Source: a virus
Virus record (IMG/VR): IMGVR_UViG_3300042923_000656
Coordinates: 1 to 44,449 of that record
Reading direction: 5' to 3' (one strand)
Length of the DNA: 44,449 bases
The position numbers and the translations under genes are program-made. Position 1 is the stretch's first letter. Every line of letters starts with the position of its first letter. Shown piece by piece: positions 16,329 through 26,130 of this stretch. A model generated the notes under the pieces. It was given only the letters and a program-made list of their open reading frames with translations, had not been told where the DNA came from and searched no databases.

Positions 16329-17603
16329 TTATTTAAATACTTTAATGCCATTGCCTTTAAATATTATCGTATAGCAGAAATATCTTACAGCATCCATTGC
16401 ATGGTCATGTTGCTTGATTGGTTTATCTTCTCCCTTGTCAGAAGCCTTAGCATCCCATATGTAGGAGTTAAACTCCAGTATGGTATTCTTGCAATCTGCA
16501 GAGAAAGCTATCAATTCCTGGTTGAGTAAAGTAGCAACATACCTGATACCATCTAACACATCATTTTTAGCCTTCTTAATCTGATATCCTCTCTTACGAA
16601 GTTCTGCAATAAAAGAAGCAGCACTCGGATCCACGATTACTGCTTTCGGTTTAATATCTCCTAGAAATGTTTTTAAATCATCTGCATATTCGGTGTCTGT
16701 TTTCTGCTCCGATTCATCTCTTCCAGAATAATAATATTCTTTTATGCATATCCATTTCCATTTTGCATCTTTACACCATAGAAGGAATACAGTTGCGTTT
16801 TGGGTACCGTAGTCACAGCTAACATAGTAAGCATCTTTGATTAGGTTGCTAACTGAATCCACAATATGCTTTACTTTATCAAACATATCATAGATAACAC
16901 CCTCTGCCACCACCCATAGACCCCTGATATAACGGTCATAGAATACTCCTGAGTACATGGACCGATATCTAGCCTTAATCTTTTCAGATAGACTTAAATT
17001 ATCATCCATAGTGAAATGTAAATATAAAAGGTTTTTTATATCTATCTTATCAATCCAGTTAACCTTAAACCAGTGATATGGTCCATCCGGATTGCAGTTA
17101 AACCAAAACTTTGAACCATCTACAGAACAACGTCCTGTTGCCTGGTTAACAAATGATTCAGGCATCAACGCAACTTCATCAAAAAAACAGCCTGCAAGAG
17201 TGATACCTTGTATCAGATCTTGTGACCGTTCATCTTTACCGCCAAATATATAAAAATAATTAGTTGCATCACCTTTTGTAACAATTACCAGGTTATCGGC
17301 TCTATGGTCTGCCACACCATATCCCCTGGACTTAAGCATAAGTTTCAACCAGAATAAAACATTACGTCTAAAGGATCCTATAGTCTTACCGCACATACCA
17401 AAGTTCTGTCCGGTAAATGTAGCCATAGCCCACATTACGAATGATAGCGACATTGATAAGGTCTTACCGGAACGAATAGCTCCATCTGCAATAATGCCAT
17501 CTTTATCTGCCATAGGTGAGTTAGGAAGCCACCAAGTTAATACCTTTAATTGCTTATTTGAAAATGGTTTGAACTTAAATATAGCTTTCATTAATCCTGC
17601 CAT
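16329..17603 (-). CDS. terL: Terminase large subunit (PBSX family)
   Basis: 424 residues. The ATPase half has Walker A GAIRSGKT at about residue 41 and Walker B GCFFDEVAL near 131. The nuclease half has VSCDYGTQNATVFL, VIVDPSAAS and a final DHAMDAVRYF, which supply the metal-binding acids of an RNase H-like nuclease. It packages DNA into the prohead through the portal. It overlaps terS by 13 bases. This family (XtmB-like) often uses headful packaging; no cos or pac site can be defined here. Confidence 0.96.
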   Translation of the reverse strand: MAGLMKAIFKFKPFSNKQLKVLTWWLPNSPMADKDGIIADGAIRSGKTLSMSLSFVMWAMATFTGQNFGMCGKTIGSFRRNVLFWLKLMLKSRGYGVADHRADNLVIVTKGDATNYFYIFGGKDERSQDLIQGITLAGCFFDEVALMPESFVNQATGRCSVDGSKFWFNCNPDGPYHWFKVNWIDKIDIKNLLYLHFTMDDNLSLSEKIKARYRSMYSGVFYDRYIRGLWVVAEGVIYDMFDKVKHIVDSVSNLIKDAYYVSCDYGTQNATVFLLWCKDAKWKWICIKEYYYSGRDESEQKTDTEYADDLKTFLGDIKPKAVIVDPSAASFIAELRKRGYQIKKAKNDVLDGIRYVATLLNQELIAFSADCKNTILEFNSYIWDAKASDKGEDKPIKQHDHAMDAVRYFCYTIIFKGNGIKVFK

Positions 17604-18322
17604 ATATCAACAACCTTTCCTGAAAGGGCTTCAATAAATCCATCATCCTCAACAGGTCCATTATCGTCTAAATTAGCTTTAGCTTTTAATACAGCAATAC
17701 GTGCTTTCTGTTCTTCAGTAGCAAGTTCCCAATTCTTATGTAGTAATTCATCGTATTGCTTAATCATACTTTCCAGTGTCTTCATGGCCCGACTCTGTGC
17801 CTGTAGGAATGTAGCATGTTTATCCCAAGCCTGCTGAACTTCCCACTTTTCACTGGATCCAGATTCACTGTATCCTTCTCCAATCTTAGTTGTAGTTACA
17901 TCTTCCTGGTCCTTAACATACATAAGCTTCTGTGCCCGGATAATAGCTGTATACTGCAGCTGTATATTATCCCATAATAAATCTAATGGATCAGCTCGCT
18001 GAATACTCTTCATGATCTGCATTGTTTCTTCCGGAAGCCACTTACTAAAGAAGCCATGTTTCTCCGCTTTTTTATTTCCAGGCGGACCGCCATCTGCATT
18101 TTTATTCCCAGGTTGTCCACCTTTAGAACGTTTGGAACGTTCCATATTTGATTGGAGCGTTCCATTCAATTGCTGTTCCCAATTGTCTTTCGACTTCCAC
18201 CCTCTAACAGAACCAGGTGAAATATTTAGTTGACTTGCAATCTCAACTAAATCAATATTACCATTATTGTCTTTATATATTTGAAATGCTTTATCCCTAT
18301 TCGGATCTCTTGCTTTCGGCAA
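17591..18322 (-). CDS. terS: Terminase small subunit
   Basis: The TTG start follows GAGGTGGTGA and gives 243 residues. An N-terminal helix-turn-helix (residues ~15-45: QIYKDNNGNIDLVEIASQL, SPGSVRGWKSKD) recognises the packaging site. The KRSKGGQPGNKNADGGPPGNKKAEKHGFFSKW linker is a familiar XtmA-type motif. The C-terminus is helical. It is the first gene of the late operon proper, right after the terminator of the PIN-like gene. Confidence 0.92.
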   Translation of the reverse strand: MPKARDPNRDKAFQIYKDNNGNIDLVEIASQLNISPGSVRGWKSKDNWEQQLNGTLQSNMERSKRSKGGQPGNKNADGGPPGNKKAEKHGFFSKWLPEETMQIMKSIQRADPLDLLWDNIQLQYTAIIRAQKLMYVKDQEDVTTTKIGEGYSESGSSEKWEVQQAWDKHATFLQAQSRAMKTLESMIKQYDELLHKNWELATEEQKARIAVLKAKANLDDNGPVEDDGFIEALSGKVVDIWQD

Positions 18323-18354: not shown

Positions 18355-18384
18355 ATGAAAAAAGGAACCCATTAGGTTCCTTTA
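18355..18384 (-). terminator. Intrinsic terminator of the PIN-like gene
   Basis: The minus-strand RNA reads AAAGGAACC-TAATG-GGTTCCTTTTTTC: a perfect stem and a strong U-tract 17 bp after the stop codon. With the promoter at 20418-20446 it makes the preceding gene an isolated transcription unit. Confidence 0.85.
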
Positions 18385-18400
18385 AACATTTTTAAAATTT

Positions 18401-20398
18401 CTACGCATTGCTTAGTTCTCGATTTTTATTTTTGACGAATTTTCTATCTAAACAATACTGGATGATTTCTTCATGGTAAAAATCATAATTTTGAAAAATT
18501 AAAATTCTTATTCTATTCTCATAAGTTGAATGAGCTTTCTGAGTGAAATAAGTTTCTATAAAATTTATATTTCTATCAATTATTTTTTCGATTAATTTTA
18601 ATATAAAATATGCCAATGGAGATATTACAGTTAATACAGATACTATTATAGCGGATTTACCTTGTAAATTATTAAAACCTGTCACCCAATTAGAAGTTAA
18701 ATATAAAACTATTGTTGAAATAATCCACCATATCTTCGATATACCGAAATATAAATCACTAATGAATAATTTTTTTAAATATTTTTCACCTGCTTCTTGT
18801 ATAAACATATCCTTTACTTTATTTTTTTCATTTACTTCTTTTTCATATTTACCCTGAATTTCTTGGTGTTTTTGTTTATTATTCTGTTCTAATGTTTCCA
18901 TAATTGAACCGTGATTGACCTTTTTATAATCCCCATTGGTAATTTGATAAATATTATATTTACAAAAAGACTCATATTTAAGCTCATTTGCTTCATCTTC
19001 AGTAATTAAATCTTCTTCTTTGTACTTATCCACAATTTGTATAAACTTTTCCCAAAATTGTTTATTAGGCACTTGCGAAGCTAAAGCATCAGATATTAAT
19101 TTCATGGTTGGTAAATCATCAGAACATGTTGTACACTTTAACCAAACAATACTTGTTAAAAGGGTATCGTCAATAATTACTTGATAATCCTTTCTTTGCT
19201 CAACTTCTCTAAAATAGTTGTTAGTATGCATTACTAGACTTAAATTAGTAGCTACAAATATTGCTTCACAATTTTCGATTCTAGAATAATTATCTCTTTT
19301 CCTTAACATATACATTGACACTACTGATTTTATATCGTTATCACGGCTTGAATATTTATTATAAGTAATATGATCCTCAAGATACTTTTCATAGCCACTC
19401 CAACTTACTTTCTTAATTTCTTCAGATGCAAAATTAAGCGTTTCTTTAAACTTTAAACCAAGTTTTTCCAGCCTGCTTCTTAACATTATTTTGTATTGCT
19501 CTGCATCTAAATCTGTAACATTTTCTTCTATTAAGTAATCATAATTATATGATTTATACAGAGTATTTCTTTTATAATGTGCAATATAAGCATCCAATAT
19601 ACCACGAATTTCATCTTCTGTATGCTCAAAATAGCATACACTTGCCCCCGAATCTTGTAGCAAATTAATTAATTCTTTTACGGCTTCTTCTTGCGCTTTA
19701 CCAGAATATCCAAGAGCATATATTAATAATGGTGTATCAAAATAAATTTCTGTATCTTTAAACTTGCTTTCTAATTTTATTTTTTTACATTTTTGCATAT
19801 GTAATGATGATACTAGCATGGCGCCTTTTACTATATCTTTAACATATTTAAAGGTTATATTATCATTTTTATATATATATTCAATAAATTTACCGATTCT
19901 AGAATTTTCAATATTTTGTGGATCTTCATCAATAAAGTCATTTTCTGACAAAACTGAATAACCATATTTGCTGAGGTATTTAATTAAATCTTTTTCTACA
20001 TCAATCTTATTGTATTCTATTTGTAAACTATCATAATATTTAAACAACTCTTTTAAAACATACTCTTGATTTTCAGTAGCTTGCACTCTAGCTTTTTCAA
20101 ACTGTTCGTTATTAATAACTTTATCTGTCAGAAAAAATGATGAATTATTTAATTTCAAATATCCATAATCTTTATTGGTTAAGCGCTTAAAGATTAATTC
20201 TAAGACATTTGATAATAACTTAATACCAAATTCTTTTTCCAATTTCCTTTTTGTTTCTGAAATTGATACTATATTGCTTTTTGAATCTGAGACTATCGAA
20301 TTTAACACAAAAGGTATAATCATATCCAGATAATCTCTTTCATTTTTCCACTCCACACTCATAATTGCAAAGCTTATTAAACTTTTTTCATTTGTCAT
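18401..20398 (-). CDS. Large PIN-like nuclease-domain protein with C-terminal membrane helices (candidate defence gene)
   Basis: I choose the ATG at 20398, 6 bases after GGGGTG; the first in-frame ATG (20419) overlaps the -10 box and would not be on the message. 665 residues. N-terminal ~30-95 looks winged-helix. Residues ~220-400 resemble a PIN domain: YFDTPLLIYAL (first Asp), FEHTEDEI, SSRDNDIKS, then a hydrophobic strand with FVATN. A charged helical stretch (~500-540) precedes two membrane helices (~554-571, ~582-603) and a cytosolic tail. PIN domains are metal-dependent RNases. With private promoter and terminator and lower GC than its neighbours, it reads as a moron, possibly abortive infection. 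No specific family recognised. Confidence 0.75.
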   Translation of the reverse strand: MTNEKSLISFAIMSVEWKNERDYLDMIIPFVLNSIVSDSKSNIVSISETKRKLEKEFGIKLLSNVLELIFKRLTNKDYGYLKLNNSSFFLTDKVINNEQFEKARVQATENQEYVLKELFKYYDSLQIEYNKIDVEKDLIKYLSKYGYSVLSENDFIDEDPQNIENSRIGKFIEYIYKNDNITFKYVKDIVKGAMLVSSLHMQKCKKIKLESKFKDTEIYFDTPLLIYALGYSGKAQEEAVKELINLLQDSGASVCYFEHTEDEIRGILDAYIAHYKRNTLYKSYNYDYLIEENVTDLDAEQYKIMLRSRLEKLGLKFKETLNFASEEIKKVSWSGYEKYLEDHITYNKYSSRDNDIKSVVSMYMLRKRDNYSRIENCEAIFVATNLSLVMHTNNYFREVEQRKDYQVIIDDTLLTSIVWLKCTTCSDDLPTMKLISDALASQVPNKQFWEKFIQIVDKYKEEDLITEDEANELKYESFCKYNIYQITNGDYKKVNHGSIMETLEQNNKQKHQEIQGKYEKEVNEKNKVKDMFIQEAGEKYLKKLFISDLYFGISKIWWIISTIVLYLTSNWVTGFNNLQGKSAIIVSVLTVISPLAYFILKLIEKIIDRNINFIETYFTQKAHSTYENRIRILIFQNYDFYHEEIIQYCLDRKFVKNKNRELSNA

Positions 20399-20417
20399 AA
20401 ATTTCACCCCGTTTAAC

Positions 20418-20446
20418 ATTATACCAAATCTCCTTCCACTTTACAA
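20418..20446 (-). promoter_or_regulatory. Sigma-A promoter of the PIN-like gene
   Basis: The minus strand has TTGTAA, a 17-base spacer and TATAAT. The start of transcription would fall about 7 bases on, just before the GGGGTG ribosome site. No phage operator is seen in it, so expression in the lysogen is likely. Confidence 0.75.
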
Positions 20447-20640: not shown

Positions 20641-20736
20641 TGCAATAGAATGGATTCGAACCACTATCTACCTGCGCTACTTGGGGCAAGTCTGCACTAC
20701 TCGGAGCAAGTGCTCTTCCAATTGAGCTACTATTCC
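20641..20736 (-). tRNA. tRNA-like element with duplicated central region (no clear anticodon)
   Basis: The minus strand reads as a tRNA at both ends: acceptor GGAATAG pairing with CTATTGC (six of seven), D arm GCTC-AATTGGAA-GAGC, and T arm AGTGG-TTCGAAT-CCATT. The middle is abnormal. Where the anticodon arm should be there are two tandem 20-base units (CTGCGCTACTTGGGGCAAGT and CTGCACTACTCGGAGCAAGT on the plus strand; 17 of 20 identical), each able to form a small hairpin. I cannot fit a 5-bp anticodon stem with a 7-base loop and U33. No CCA is encoded. It may be a decayed tRNA, a class-II-like tRNA or a tRNA mimic. Confidence 0.45.
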
Positions 20737-20959: not shown

Positions 20960-21454
20960 TCATATAAGCTCTATGCCTTCTACACCAAATAGTTGAATGC
21001 TTACTTCTTTTGTTAAGTCATTAACCCATCTACTGATAGACTGTTTACTTGTGAAATAATCTTTAGCAGCTTCATCATATGTCATCCCATCGAGCATACA
21101 GCTTATAAAAGCATTATATTTTTCTGGAATACCTTTTCTCTTACATTCAGCTTGGATTAAATTCAATGCCTTATCTATGTGAGCTATAACAATAAGGCTT
21201 TTTAACTTGCTTTTTCTAATACTGTTAATATAAATTTCTTCTTCATCATCATAACCAATACAATCTCTCTCTAACTGATTTACTTCGGAGATAGCTTCAT
21301 TAATGCTATTCTGTATCTTATTATAATTTTTAAGAAGCATTTTTGTATTATGTAGAGCTTTCTTCCTTTGCTCAACTTTTTGCTCTTTACTATATTCTCT
21401 TATAGCTGTTTTAACCGCCTTGTTAATTAATTCGTCTGCTGTTTGTTTATTCAA
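20960..21454 (-). CDS. ArpU/RinA-like late transcription regulator
   Basis: The TTG at 21454 follows AAGGGGTGA and gives about 164 residues; a GTG at 21487 would overlap the upstream gene. The N-terminal half is a charged helical region. The C-terminal ~50 residues (GMTYDEAAKDYFTSKQSISRWVNDL) form a sigma-region-4-like helix-turn-helix. Small regulators of this ArpU/RinA type end the early operons of Firmicute phages and switch on packaging and head genes. Location just before the noncoding block and terminase fits. Confidence 0.75.
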   Translation of the reverse strand: MNKQTADELINKAVKTAIREYSKEQKVEQRKKALHNTKMLLKNYNKIQNSINEAISEVNQLERDCIGYDDEEEIYINSIRKSKLKSLIVIAHIDKALNLIQAECKRKGIPEKYNAFISCMLDGMTYDEAAKDYFTSKQSISRWVNDLTKEVSIQLFGVEGIELI

Positions 21455-21458
21455 TCTC

Positions 21459-21734
21459 TCACCCCTTATTGTAATGTGTGTATCCACAGTAGTAATCTAC
21501 TCTGCCACTCTTATTCTTTTTCTTGTATGTATAATTTCCTCTGGACATATTTAAATTGAAGTGAATTTCCTTGCCGCATATTTTGCATTTCTCTGTATCA
21601 AAGCCAAAGGATTTTAGCTGTGACTCAGTAAGTTCTCCGGTTCCGGCCACATCATACATGTGCTGCTTCTGTATCTGCTTAGGGACGCTCCTTTCGTTTA
21701 GCTTCAATCTTTGAATCCAGGAAGGTATCATCAT
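21459..21734 (-). CDS. Zinc-finger-like small phage protein
   Basis: Up to 91 residues; the start is uncertain because the first ~18 codons overlap the upstream gene, and an internal ATG at 21659 would leave 66 residues. The conserved part has GELTESQLKSFGF followed by a CKICGK pair, a Tyr/Lys-rich loop and YYCGYTHY, a probable four-ligand zinc site. It stops 5 bases before the ArpU-like start. I know no function; small zinc proteins of this sort are frequent near late regulators. Confidence 0.65.
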   Translation of the reverse strand: MMIPSWIQRLKLNERSVPKQIQKQHMYDVAGTGELTESQLKSFGFDTEKCKICGKEIHFNLNMSRGNYTYKKKNKSGRVDYYCGYTHYNKG

Positions 21735-24240: not shown

Positions 24241-26130
24241 TCACTCTTTCTTTTGAAATTCTTTTAGGTATTCCACGATAGTAGATTTATTAGTATTGCA
24301 CTCATAAAATGTTCTGGATTCGTCCAAAGTGAAGATGCCTTTCTGACTTGTACTGTAAGTTGTCTTTATCCCTAACAGATAATACTGTTCAGCTGCATAT
24401 TCAAAATCCTTGGTTTCTTTATACCTCTCCCATGCATGTTTCCGACTCACCTTAACCACTATTGCCACATTATCAGTAAGATTGTATCTGTAATATTTCT
24501 CACCTGTTTGAGGAAGGTCAATCCATACTGGCCAGGATTTATAATTATCAATAAATTCTTTTCGCTGGTCATTATTTTTTAGAATTGGCAGTTCCGGTTG
24601 TGCTGGTTGAACCCGCTCCGGAATAGGATATTCCATATCCGTCAGATGAAGCTTTAATGCAAGAAGAATAGTTTCATGTTTTAGCAATGCATCCGGATTA
24701 GATTTGCTCCATGAATCTCGCATTTGAGTAATCTGATCTTCTTCTCGTTTGATAGCTTCCTGCAGGTGATGCTTTGCTGTGAATGCAGGTTTAGGAAGTA
24801 CTTCCGGTTCTGTCTGTATGATATCAGCTTCTACGGTTTCAACTTGATCCGATTCTTTTGGCTGCCACTTATTACCTTTAACACAATAATCATCCTTGGT
24901 ATTAGGATAATCACAGCAGCCTTGTACTTCTCGCGCGCAGGTATCACAGAGAAGAATATCTGTCTGATCCGGCTTTACAATCTTCGGTACCCAATAATTG
25001 AATTTATCATCACAGTTATTGCAAGGGAATTCTTTTGTATCCGGATGATCTGTCCTATATTTATCAGGATCCATGTCATCATATTTGCAATTTCCACATT
25101 CTCTTTCCGAAATAACACTTTCCGACTCTTCAATAACGGTTTCAGCTGCTTCACTAACAGTTTCTATGTATTCCGGTACAATTTCAACTGATTCTGTTAC
25201 GGCTATCTTTTCTGCTCCATGTGCTGAATGATTACATCTGGCTCCACAAGACTCATTGCATAAATTACAACACGAACTAATACAATTAACTCCAAGATTC
25301 AAAGCTACTTCATGGGCATTATATAAATTACATTTTTTCTCCGTGTCGTAGATACAGGAAGTTCTTTTCTCCTGTGAACCATTACAGCCCTCATTTTTGC
25401 AATAAAAGCAATTACCATCACATGCAGCTTCTTTAAATTCAGGAAAAATATCAGTAATACTACTTTTAATTCTCTGTCCCCCAAATTGTTCGCTACCATA
25501 TTTCTTAAGACTCCGGCTAATCTTCTCAAGCTCTGTCATAATCTGCTTAACGTAATAATCACCTATCTTGAAATCAAGAAGTTCCTGTTCGGAATGCTCA
25601 CATAACTTTTCGATTGAGTCAATACCATGCTTATGAAGTGCGTTAAATGCTGATACTGAAAGATCTAAATCATCAATGGTAAGAGACTTTGCTTTCTCTG
25701 TTTCCTGTTGCGCCGGCGCAACAACTTTATCAGCTTGTTTAATTTCTCTTATTTCTGCCCTGGTAGTTGTGATTGTTACCTGCTCTAACTGCTCGTCCGA
25801 CATGGTTAGCATTTCAGATAATTTGCTACTACTGAAATCCTTGTACTGTTCCAGAAGAATTGGTGAATTACCATCTTGGCTGAACCGGTCATTAATGGCC
25901 ATAAACCTAGATGCACTTGATTTACTGATGCCGAATTCAGCCTGGGCAAATTCCCATATACTCTGATAACCATCTTCAAGATATAATTCTCTATCCCTTA
26001 CACTTTTCAGATAATACCCTATTGCCACAAAGGATCTGGAAGCTATATTGATATTATCTTTGATAATAGATTTTATTGTTTCTAATGGTGTATTTTCATA
26101 CCACTTTACTTCATCCATTTTTATTTTCAC
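24241..26130 (-). CDS. Large regulatory-like protein with RNA polymerase alpha-CTD-like domain and Cys clusters
   Basis: 629 residues in four parts. Residues 1-130 resemble DUF3102/ParB-like phage proteins (YQSIWEFAQAEFGISKSSAS is a helix-turn-helix-like segment). Residues ~150-205 (LTIDDLDLSVSAFNALHKHG, IDSIEKLCEHSEQELL) follow closely the alpha C-terminal domain of bacterial RNA polymerase (VDDLELTVRSANCLK in E. coli). Residues ~237-300 and ~345-417 hold many Cys, including CDGNCFYCKNEGCN and CCNLCNESCGARC. The C-terminal ~200 residues are helical with a mixed tail. The alpha-CTD helix-hairpin-helix binds DNA and activators, so a role in transcription or replication control is likely but unproven. 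Confidence 0.78.
   Translation of the reverse strand: MKIKMDEVKWYENTPLETIKSIIKDNINIASRSFVAIGYYLKSVRDRELYLEDGYQSIWEFAQAEFGISKSSASRFMAINDRFSQDGNSPILLEQYKDFSSSKLSEMLTMSDEQLEQVTITTTRAEIREIKQADKVVAPAQQETEKAKSLTIDDLDLSVSAFNALHKHGIDSIEKLCEHSEQELLDFKIGDYYVKQIMTELEKISRSLKKYGSEQFGGQRIKSSITDIFPEFKEAACDGNCFYCKNEGCNGSQEKRTSCIYDTEKKCNLYNAHEVALNLGVNCISSCCNLCNESCGARCNHSAHGAEKIAVTESVEIVPEYIETVSEAAETVIEESESVISERECGNCKYDDMDPDKYRTDHPDTKEFPCNNCDDKFNYWVPKIVKPDQTDILLCDTCAREVQGCCDYPNTKDDYCVKGNKWQPKESDQVETVEADIIQTEPEVLPKPAFTAKHHLQEAIKREEDQITQMRDSWSKSNPDALLKHETILLALKLHLTDMEYPIPERVQPAQPELPILKNNDQRKEFIDNYKSWPVWIDLPQTGEKYYRYNLTDNVAIVVKVSRKHAWERYKETKDFEYAAEQYYLLGIKTTYSTSQKGIFTLDESRTFYECNTNKSTIVEYLKEFQKKE

Follow-up and report, generated by a model that had tools for sequence, protein, structure and literature searches.

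Toxins with a PIN domain cut tRNA, and PIN folds are also known in DNA-acting and non-defence proteins. The gene for the anticodon nuclease PrrC has its place between hsdS and hsdR in a type I restriction-modification (R-M) locus, as in Eco prr, and the RexAB pair of phage lambda is a two-gene, membrane-linked prophage moron. PrrC is reported to be silenced by the type I enzyme to which it is linked and to be activated by a phage anti-restriction factor (PMC2610378). A single-protein PIN system, DS-3, has been validated among the DefensePredictor candidates of 2026; it is reported to have no cognate antitoxin and to lose its defence upon active-site mutation (PMC13092281). The fun locus of phage P2 is enriched in defence genes (PMC9519451).

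In the window, by which we mean the whole 44,449-nucleotide stretch of viral DNA analysed here, a long PIN gene lies in the order regulator, tRNA gene, PIN gene, terS. We read it as a prophage moron that would encode a membrane-anchored, self-inhibited PIN RNase aborting superinfection, a reading to which we assign a probability of about 0.68; its most likely role is to shield the host cell from competing viruses. The locus has the following features.

17591..18322, minus strand: terminase small subunit gene (terS), downstream of the PIN gene and one border of the cargo slot
18355..18383, minus strand: intrinsic terminator with a GGAACC stem and a run of T; the plus strand also shows a terminator-like match
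18401..20398, minus strand: PIN protein gene, coding for 665 aa when read from the likely start
20405..20410, minus strand: Shine-Dalgarno GGGGTG, read from the sequence
20418..20446, minus strand: promoter-like site TTGTAA-17-TATAAT with an extended -10 (TG), matching the consensus at 10/12 positions
20641..20736, minus strand: tRNA gene whose anticodon arm is enlarged, the other border of the cargo slot
20960..21487, minus strand: HTH gene resembling late regulators (phrog_1558), upstream of the PIN gene

The PIN gene is a single open frame (18401..20419, minus strand) of 672 codons when counted from the first ATG (20417-20419). A second in-frame ATG (20396-20398) is the likely start, being preceded by GGGGTG at a distance of 6 nt, whereas the first ATG shares letters with the TATAAT hexamer; residue numbers below are those of the long frame (672 aa) and are 7 higher than in an earlier, sequence-only reading, which counted from the second ATG. 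That reading had placed one long gene between a late regulator and the terminase, and this holds, except that it overlooked the tRNA gene lying between the regulator and the PIN gene. The consensus promoter that it proposed stands in part: the 10/12 match does lie at the gene start and is among the best two of the region's 20 such sites, but chance alone would give 17.4 in shuffled sequence, and since the count is no higher than that, it is only the position that makes the promoter plausible. Its strong terminator is borne out (10-bp stem, dG -14.4, z -2.9, equalled by one of 200 shuffles), as is the AT-richness of the gene, whose GC content of 26.0% compares with 37% and 35% in the flanks and 35.4% in the whole window and is the lowest of the 26 large ORFs tested. 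As to the neighbouring tRNA gene, it scores 43 bits against Rfam, its anticodon arm is 29 nt larger and looks like two similar stem-loop copies, and its amino acid could not be assigned by ARAGORN. Elsewhere in the window, a 629-aa ORF (24241-26130, minus strand) contains a domain resembling the C-terminal domain of RNA polymerase alpha (PF03118, E 8e-10) and also matches an uncharacterised phage family, phrog_15077.

By sequence, the window protein has no significant match in Pfam, NCBIfam, PHROGs, PADLOC or the PDB. No PIN or VapC model matched it in Pfam at E up to 1 or in NCBIfam at E up to 5, none of the PADLOC (2023) system models matched at E up to 1, and no ATPase model of Pfam or NCBIfam matched. 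Two weak Pfam candidates, IF2_N and Anticodon_2, fell below the cut-off and were rejected. The architecture of the protein was instead derived from an AlphaFold2 model built on a 37-row family alignment (mean pLDDT 80, about 95 in the PIN core) together with the sequence, and consists of a winged helix, a helical region, a PIN domain with a helical insert, a coiled coil and a membrane hairpin.

20066..20329, minus strand: predicted winged-helix domain, residues 31-118 (VIA-align; pLDDT about 80-95)
19133..19756, minus strand: predicted PIN nuclease core, residues 222-429 (VIA-align, Foldseek; pLDDT about 95)
19736..19738, minus strand: predicted active-site Asp228 (Asp221 in the earlier numbering), in 37/37 family rows
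19610..19612, minus strand: predicted active-site Glu270, in 37/37 family rows
19364..19567, minus strand: helical insert in the PIN core, residues about 285-352 (secondary structure of the model; variable in the alignment)
19334..19336, minus strand: predicted active-site Asp362 (Asp355 in the earlier numbering), in 33/37 family rows
19244..19246, minus strand: Asn392, occupying the fourth active-site position of the PIN domain, where Asp is usual; in 36/37 family rows
18755..18913, minus strand: long helix, predicted coiled coil, residues about 503-555 (the helix of the model spans 503-582)
18599..18754, minus strand: two-helix membrane hairpin, residues 556-607 (hydropathy)

When the model was compared with the PDB using VIA-align, the PIN core superimposed on VapC (3zvk) with a Z score of 11.6 and an rmsd of 2.8 over 131 of 132 residues, followed by further VapC proteins and by the PIN domains of RNA-free RNase P, the exosome and SMG6. 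The winged helix, over residues 31-100, matched a GntR protein (3fms; Z 8.8, rmsd 1.9, 62 residues) and F93 (2co5; Z 8.6). A Foldseek search of the PDB with the whole 672-aa model had a best E of 0.086, which is not significant, with PIN chains at a probability of 1.00, and a search of BFVD returned one PIN-like phage protein (E 0.039). Assignment of the PIN fold is supported by the VIA-align Z, the Foldseek probability, residue conservation and model confidence taken together. In addition to the acidic positions, Trp426 is invariant (37/37 rows), and the C-terminal hydrophobic segments of the window protein (556-574 and 589-607) have counterparts in the family, 32 of the 37 rows having at least two such segments. 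The PIN-like core suspected earlier is indeed present in the model, the proposed order of winged helix, PIN domain and two membrane helices agrees with structure comparison and hydropathy, and the two aspartates that had been singled out, Asp221 and Asp355, fall at genuine acidic positions of a PIN domain. The best reading of the model is that the window protein is a predicted PIN ribonuclease that is anchored in the membrane.

The likeness to VapC extends across the whole core, with acidic active-site residues in the expected places, but the differences are considerable. The window protein is single, with no linked antitoxin gene; it adds a winged helix, a coiled coil and a membrane hairpin; its PIN core carries a helical insert and has Asn in place of the fourth Asp; and its sequence is too distant for any family model. 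By its description DS-3 appears to differ in another way, its PIN domain being split between the N and C termini rather than central (PMC13092281); the two may nonetheless be related, or even identical.

A membrane anchor could also serve a different purpose. The hairpin and coiled coil could put the PIN domain near the site where DNA enters, and many plasmids carry relatives, so that one might picture a nuclease that cuts incoming DNA at the injection site, in superinfection or plasmid exclusion, and is not an abortive RNase. We consider this improbable, given that the nearest solved PIN domains listed above are all those of RNases, whereas the DNA nuclease human Exo1, which does match the model in Foldseek, ranks lower.

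Single-protein and alignment-based scans of genomes and viral contigs recovered almost no relatives of the window protein, and relatives were found with a hand-made degenerate DNA pattern for [IV]Y[FL]D[TS]...G..G, the first PIN strand. It matched 3 times in viral contigs and 51 times in genomes, at least 44 of the 51 being true relatives. Genome matches with E values of 1e-3 to 1e-6 over profile positions 473-646 were set aside as coiled-coil noise. Full-length relatives span at least 10 phyla and are rare and patchy. Plasmid copies, at 23-29% identity, occur in Sporosarcina, Enterococcus, Arthrobacter, Hymenobacter, Klebsiella, Pantoea and Citrobacter. Matches of the full-length type were present in one of 398 other Bacilli genomes sampled, where the copy is broken, and in three of 368 other Gammaproteobacteria genomes; in E. 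coli the family occurs in 6 of 5,426 genomes. Being rare and yet spread over at least 10 phyla is consistent with non-essential cargo that moves horizontally. The tree places the window copy first with one from an unclassified bacterial bin (L132, 34% identity) and then with that of an alphaproteobacterial bin, apart from the Bacillota copies; a tmRNA gene lies near the L132 copy, and likewise near an E. coli copy located at the end of a lambdoid prophage.

A divergent second subfamily (L037, L044, L047, L049 and L191) has the same architecture, comes mostly from Clostridia-type genomes and matches the profile of the PIN family with a profile-profile probability of 98.7%. Frame-broken or stop-interrupted copies or matches were seen in Pseudomonas sp. 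Kh13 (L065), Gracilibacillus (L131) and L016/L060, which suggests that some copies of the gene decay quickly.

The surroundings of some relatives recall those of PrrC. The gene order hsdM-hsdS-PIN-hsdR is found in Salinibius (L099) and Oceanospirillum (L120), and an Aeromonadaceae bin (L097) has hsdM-hsdS-PIN, two genes and then hsdR, with HsdR, HsdS and HsdM identified by Pfam and by BLAST clustering with Pfam-labelled members. In the hsd operons the ATG of the PIN gene overlaps or almost touches the hsdS stop codon (TAATG in L099), and type I R-M genes also adjoin the PIN gene at four further loci (L104, L105, L121 and L122). The commonest Pfam families of immediate neighbours are Methylase_S, N6_Mtase and HsdM_N, with integrases next. 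HsdM was present within 5 kb or less at 5 of 20 matched loci and at none of the 20 control regions drawn from those genomes, a modest difference (Fisher p 0.047); the control regions were checked by PADLOC for 209 of their 311 ORFs and by BLAST for all 311, and other defence genes were present in one or more of them.

In L099 and L120 the PIN gene thus fills the gap between hsdS and hsdR that prrC occupies, PrrC being a known RNase and the PIN protein a predicted one, and by this analogy the placement suggests that some family members guard restriction as PrrC does. A narrower form of our preferred explanation can be built on this: the PIN protein would watch a restriction system, or a surface to which phage anti-restriction proteins bind, and cut RNA only when restriction is disabled, the window copy being a stand-alone descendant. 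The three operons with their overlapping or nearly touching genes and the four additional R-M loci argue for such a guard, but most relatives, the window copy included, have no adjacent hsd genes, and the window protein contains no ABC ATPase domain among its parts, whereas PrrC, like RloC, has one fused to its nuclease. We hold this narrower form to be unlikely for the window gene; as most members are not linked to R-M, the window copy would more probably answer to a broader trigger.

The R-M genes are the only strongly recurrent neighbours. No recurrent small partner, antitoxin or sensor gene lies beside the PIN gene in 40 loci, and in the window no small companion gene lies between the promoter and the terminator. 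These observations bear on the idea of an orphan PIN toxin that stabilises a mobile element by addiction, paired with a small or RNA antitoxin that escaped recognition. Its VapC-type fold and its presence on plasmids would suit such a toxin; the protein is, against this, five times the length of VapC and has no conserved small neighbour, nor do tRNA genes recur beside its relatives, and we judge the idea quite improbable. A functional tie to the neighbouring tRNA was likewise rejected, as there is no recurrence at relatives and a related phage (L181) has the regulator, the tRNA gene and terS with no PIN gene.

Other relatives reside in prophages and among defence genes. In a P2-like prophage of E. 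coli (L011), the PIN gene is flanked by FI, the tail sheath gene, and by a tail fibre assembly gene, and runs on the strand opposite to FI. The slot beside FI in P2 itself holds fun(Z), annotated as blocking T5, in this same orientation, a likeness that concerns location and orientation only. Another P2-like prophage (L010) carries the PIN gene between ogr and D. The Sporosarcina plasmid copy (L001) has CBASS genes (nucleotidyltransferase, ThiF, Mov34 and SAVED) 1.2 kb away, and the Hymenobacter copy is flanked by a methyltransferase/helicase set on one side and CHAT genes on the other. The homologues were thus found on plasmids, in type I restriction operons, in the P2 exclusion slot and in chromosomal islands, not among lytic essential genes, and the moron interpretation first put forward from the DNA letters now has the support of structure and of the location of relatives.

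The position of the PIN gene in the window can be compared directly with related phages. Among 80 terS relatives from viral contigs, the space upstream of terS is hypervariable: the PIN gene is absent from the matching slot in nearly all of them, which have unrelated cassettes or nothing in its place, and tRNA-Leu, tRNA-Ile or tRNA-Thr genes stand at the matching place in related phages. The slot is empty in L181 and holds other cassettes in L166, L167, L171, L158, L157 and L194, that of L194 being a dGTPase, an enzyme class known in phage defence. In L191 it holds a 668-aa distant relative of the window protein (HMM E 1e-9), from the divergent group described above, whose order as read from sequence is a winged-helix-like region, PIN motifs, a coiled coil and a hairpin; with the window copy, the terS slot is therefore filled by such a protein in two related phages. 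In L158, L164 and L205 the slot contains a DUF6731 or related gene and a membrane protein; like the window PIN gene, these pairs are prophage cargo with a membrane part in the same slot, but they consist of two genes and no PIN domain was found in them.

Two-gene cassettes with a RexAB-like layout were observed upstream of terS in L157, L158, L164, L171, L205, L220 and L222, a soluble protein of ~300 aa (DUF6731 in L158) being followed by a membrane protein of 150-200 aa, and they are candidate exclusion systems. The slot of L175 (4997-5911) encodes a 305-aa cargo protein that appears by eye to be TIR- or nucleoside-transferase-like and that had no sequence match in the PDB.

The window gene accordingly has the marks of a moron, namely its own promoter (on consensus-level evidence) and terminator, and absence or replacement at the same site in related phages. 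It shares its strand with the late genes and may also be transcribed late. This strand, the adjacent late regulator and a terminator that could insulate terS might point to an RNase that regulates the cycle of the phage itself, acting in late mRNA processing or lysogeny control and located upstream of the terminase by chance. Such a role appears very improbable, because the gene is missing from the slot of nearly all related phages, the family has 0 matches in 50,697 records of isolated phages, and relatives occur on plasmids and in restriction operons.

On the moron reading, the prophage would express the PIN gene as independently transcribed cargo, and the predicted single-protein, membrane-anchored ribonuclease would stay inactive in healthy lysogens. 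A superinfection signal would arrive through the N-terminal winged-helix/helical region or through the membrane/coiled-coil part. The signal is probably a phage protein, stress to the membrane or the DNA, or the blocking of a host defence, but this is a guess, since the search for a conserved partner or sensor gene turned up none. The putative active site (Asp228, Glu270, Asp362 and Asn392) would then cut host or phage RNA, translation would stop and the infection would be aborted, which would spare sister lysogens and hence the prophage. Weighing against this reading are the modest case-control difference, the occurrence of PIN folds in proteins that act on DNA or outside defence, and the fact that most relatives have no known defence gene beside them.

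The PIN fold and the principle of an abortive RNase are already known; the architecture and the family are absent from the libraries searched. The earlier statement that no described defence system has this order of parts agrees with those libraries but needs qualifying, since DS-3 has meanwhile been validated as a single-protein PIN system (PMC13092281). More speculatively, and as a proposal that we think has the odds against it, the family could be a general PIN equivalent of PrrC, tethered to the membrane: an RNase alarm made of one protein, guarding restriction or another early step at the membrane and spread domain-wide by phages, plasmids and restriction operons. With the divergent Clostridia subfamily it would then form a superfamily of RNases of abortive infection, missed by current defence catalogues.

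The slot upstream of terS is a cargo hotspot in a group of temperate phages of the Gram-positive type, and it can be mined for exclusion genes. The family itself is an unannotated, bacteria-wide one that is tied to phage defence by three independent kinds of location, and its members in the exact operon slot of PrrC provide a testable link between a predicted PIN ribonuclease and type I restriction.
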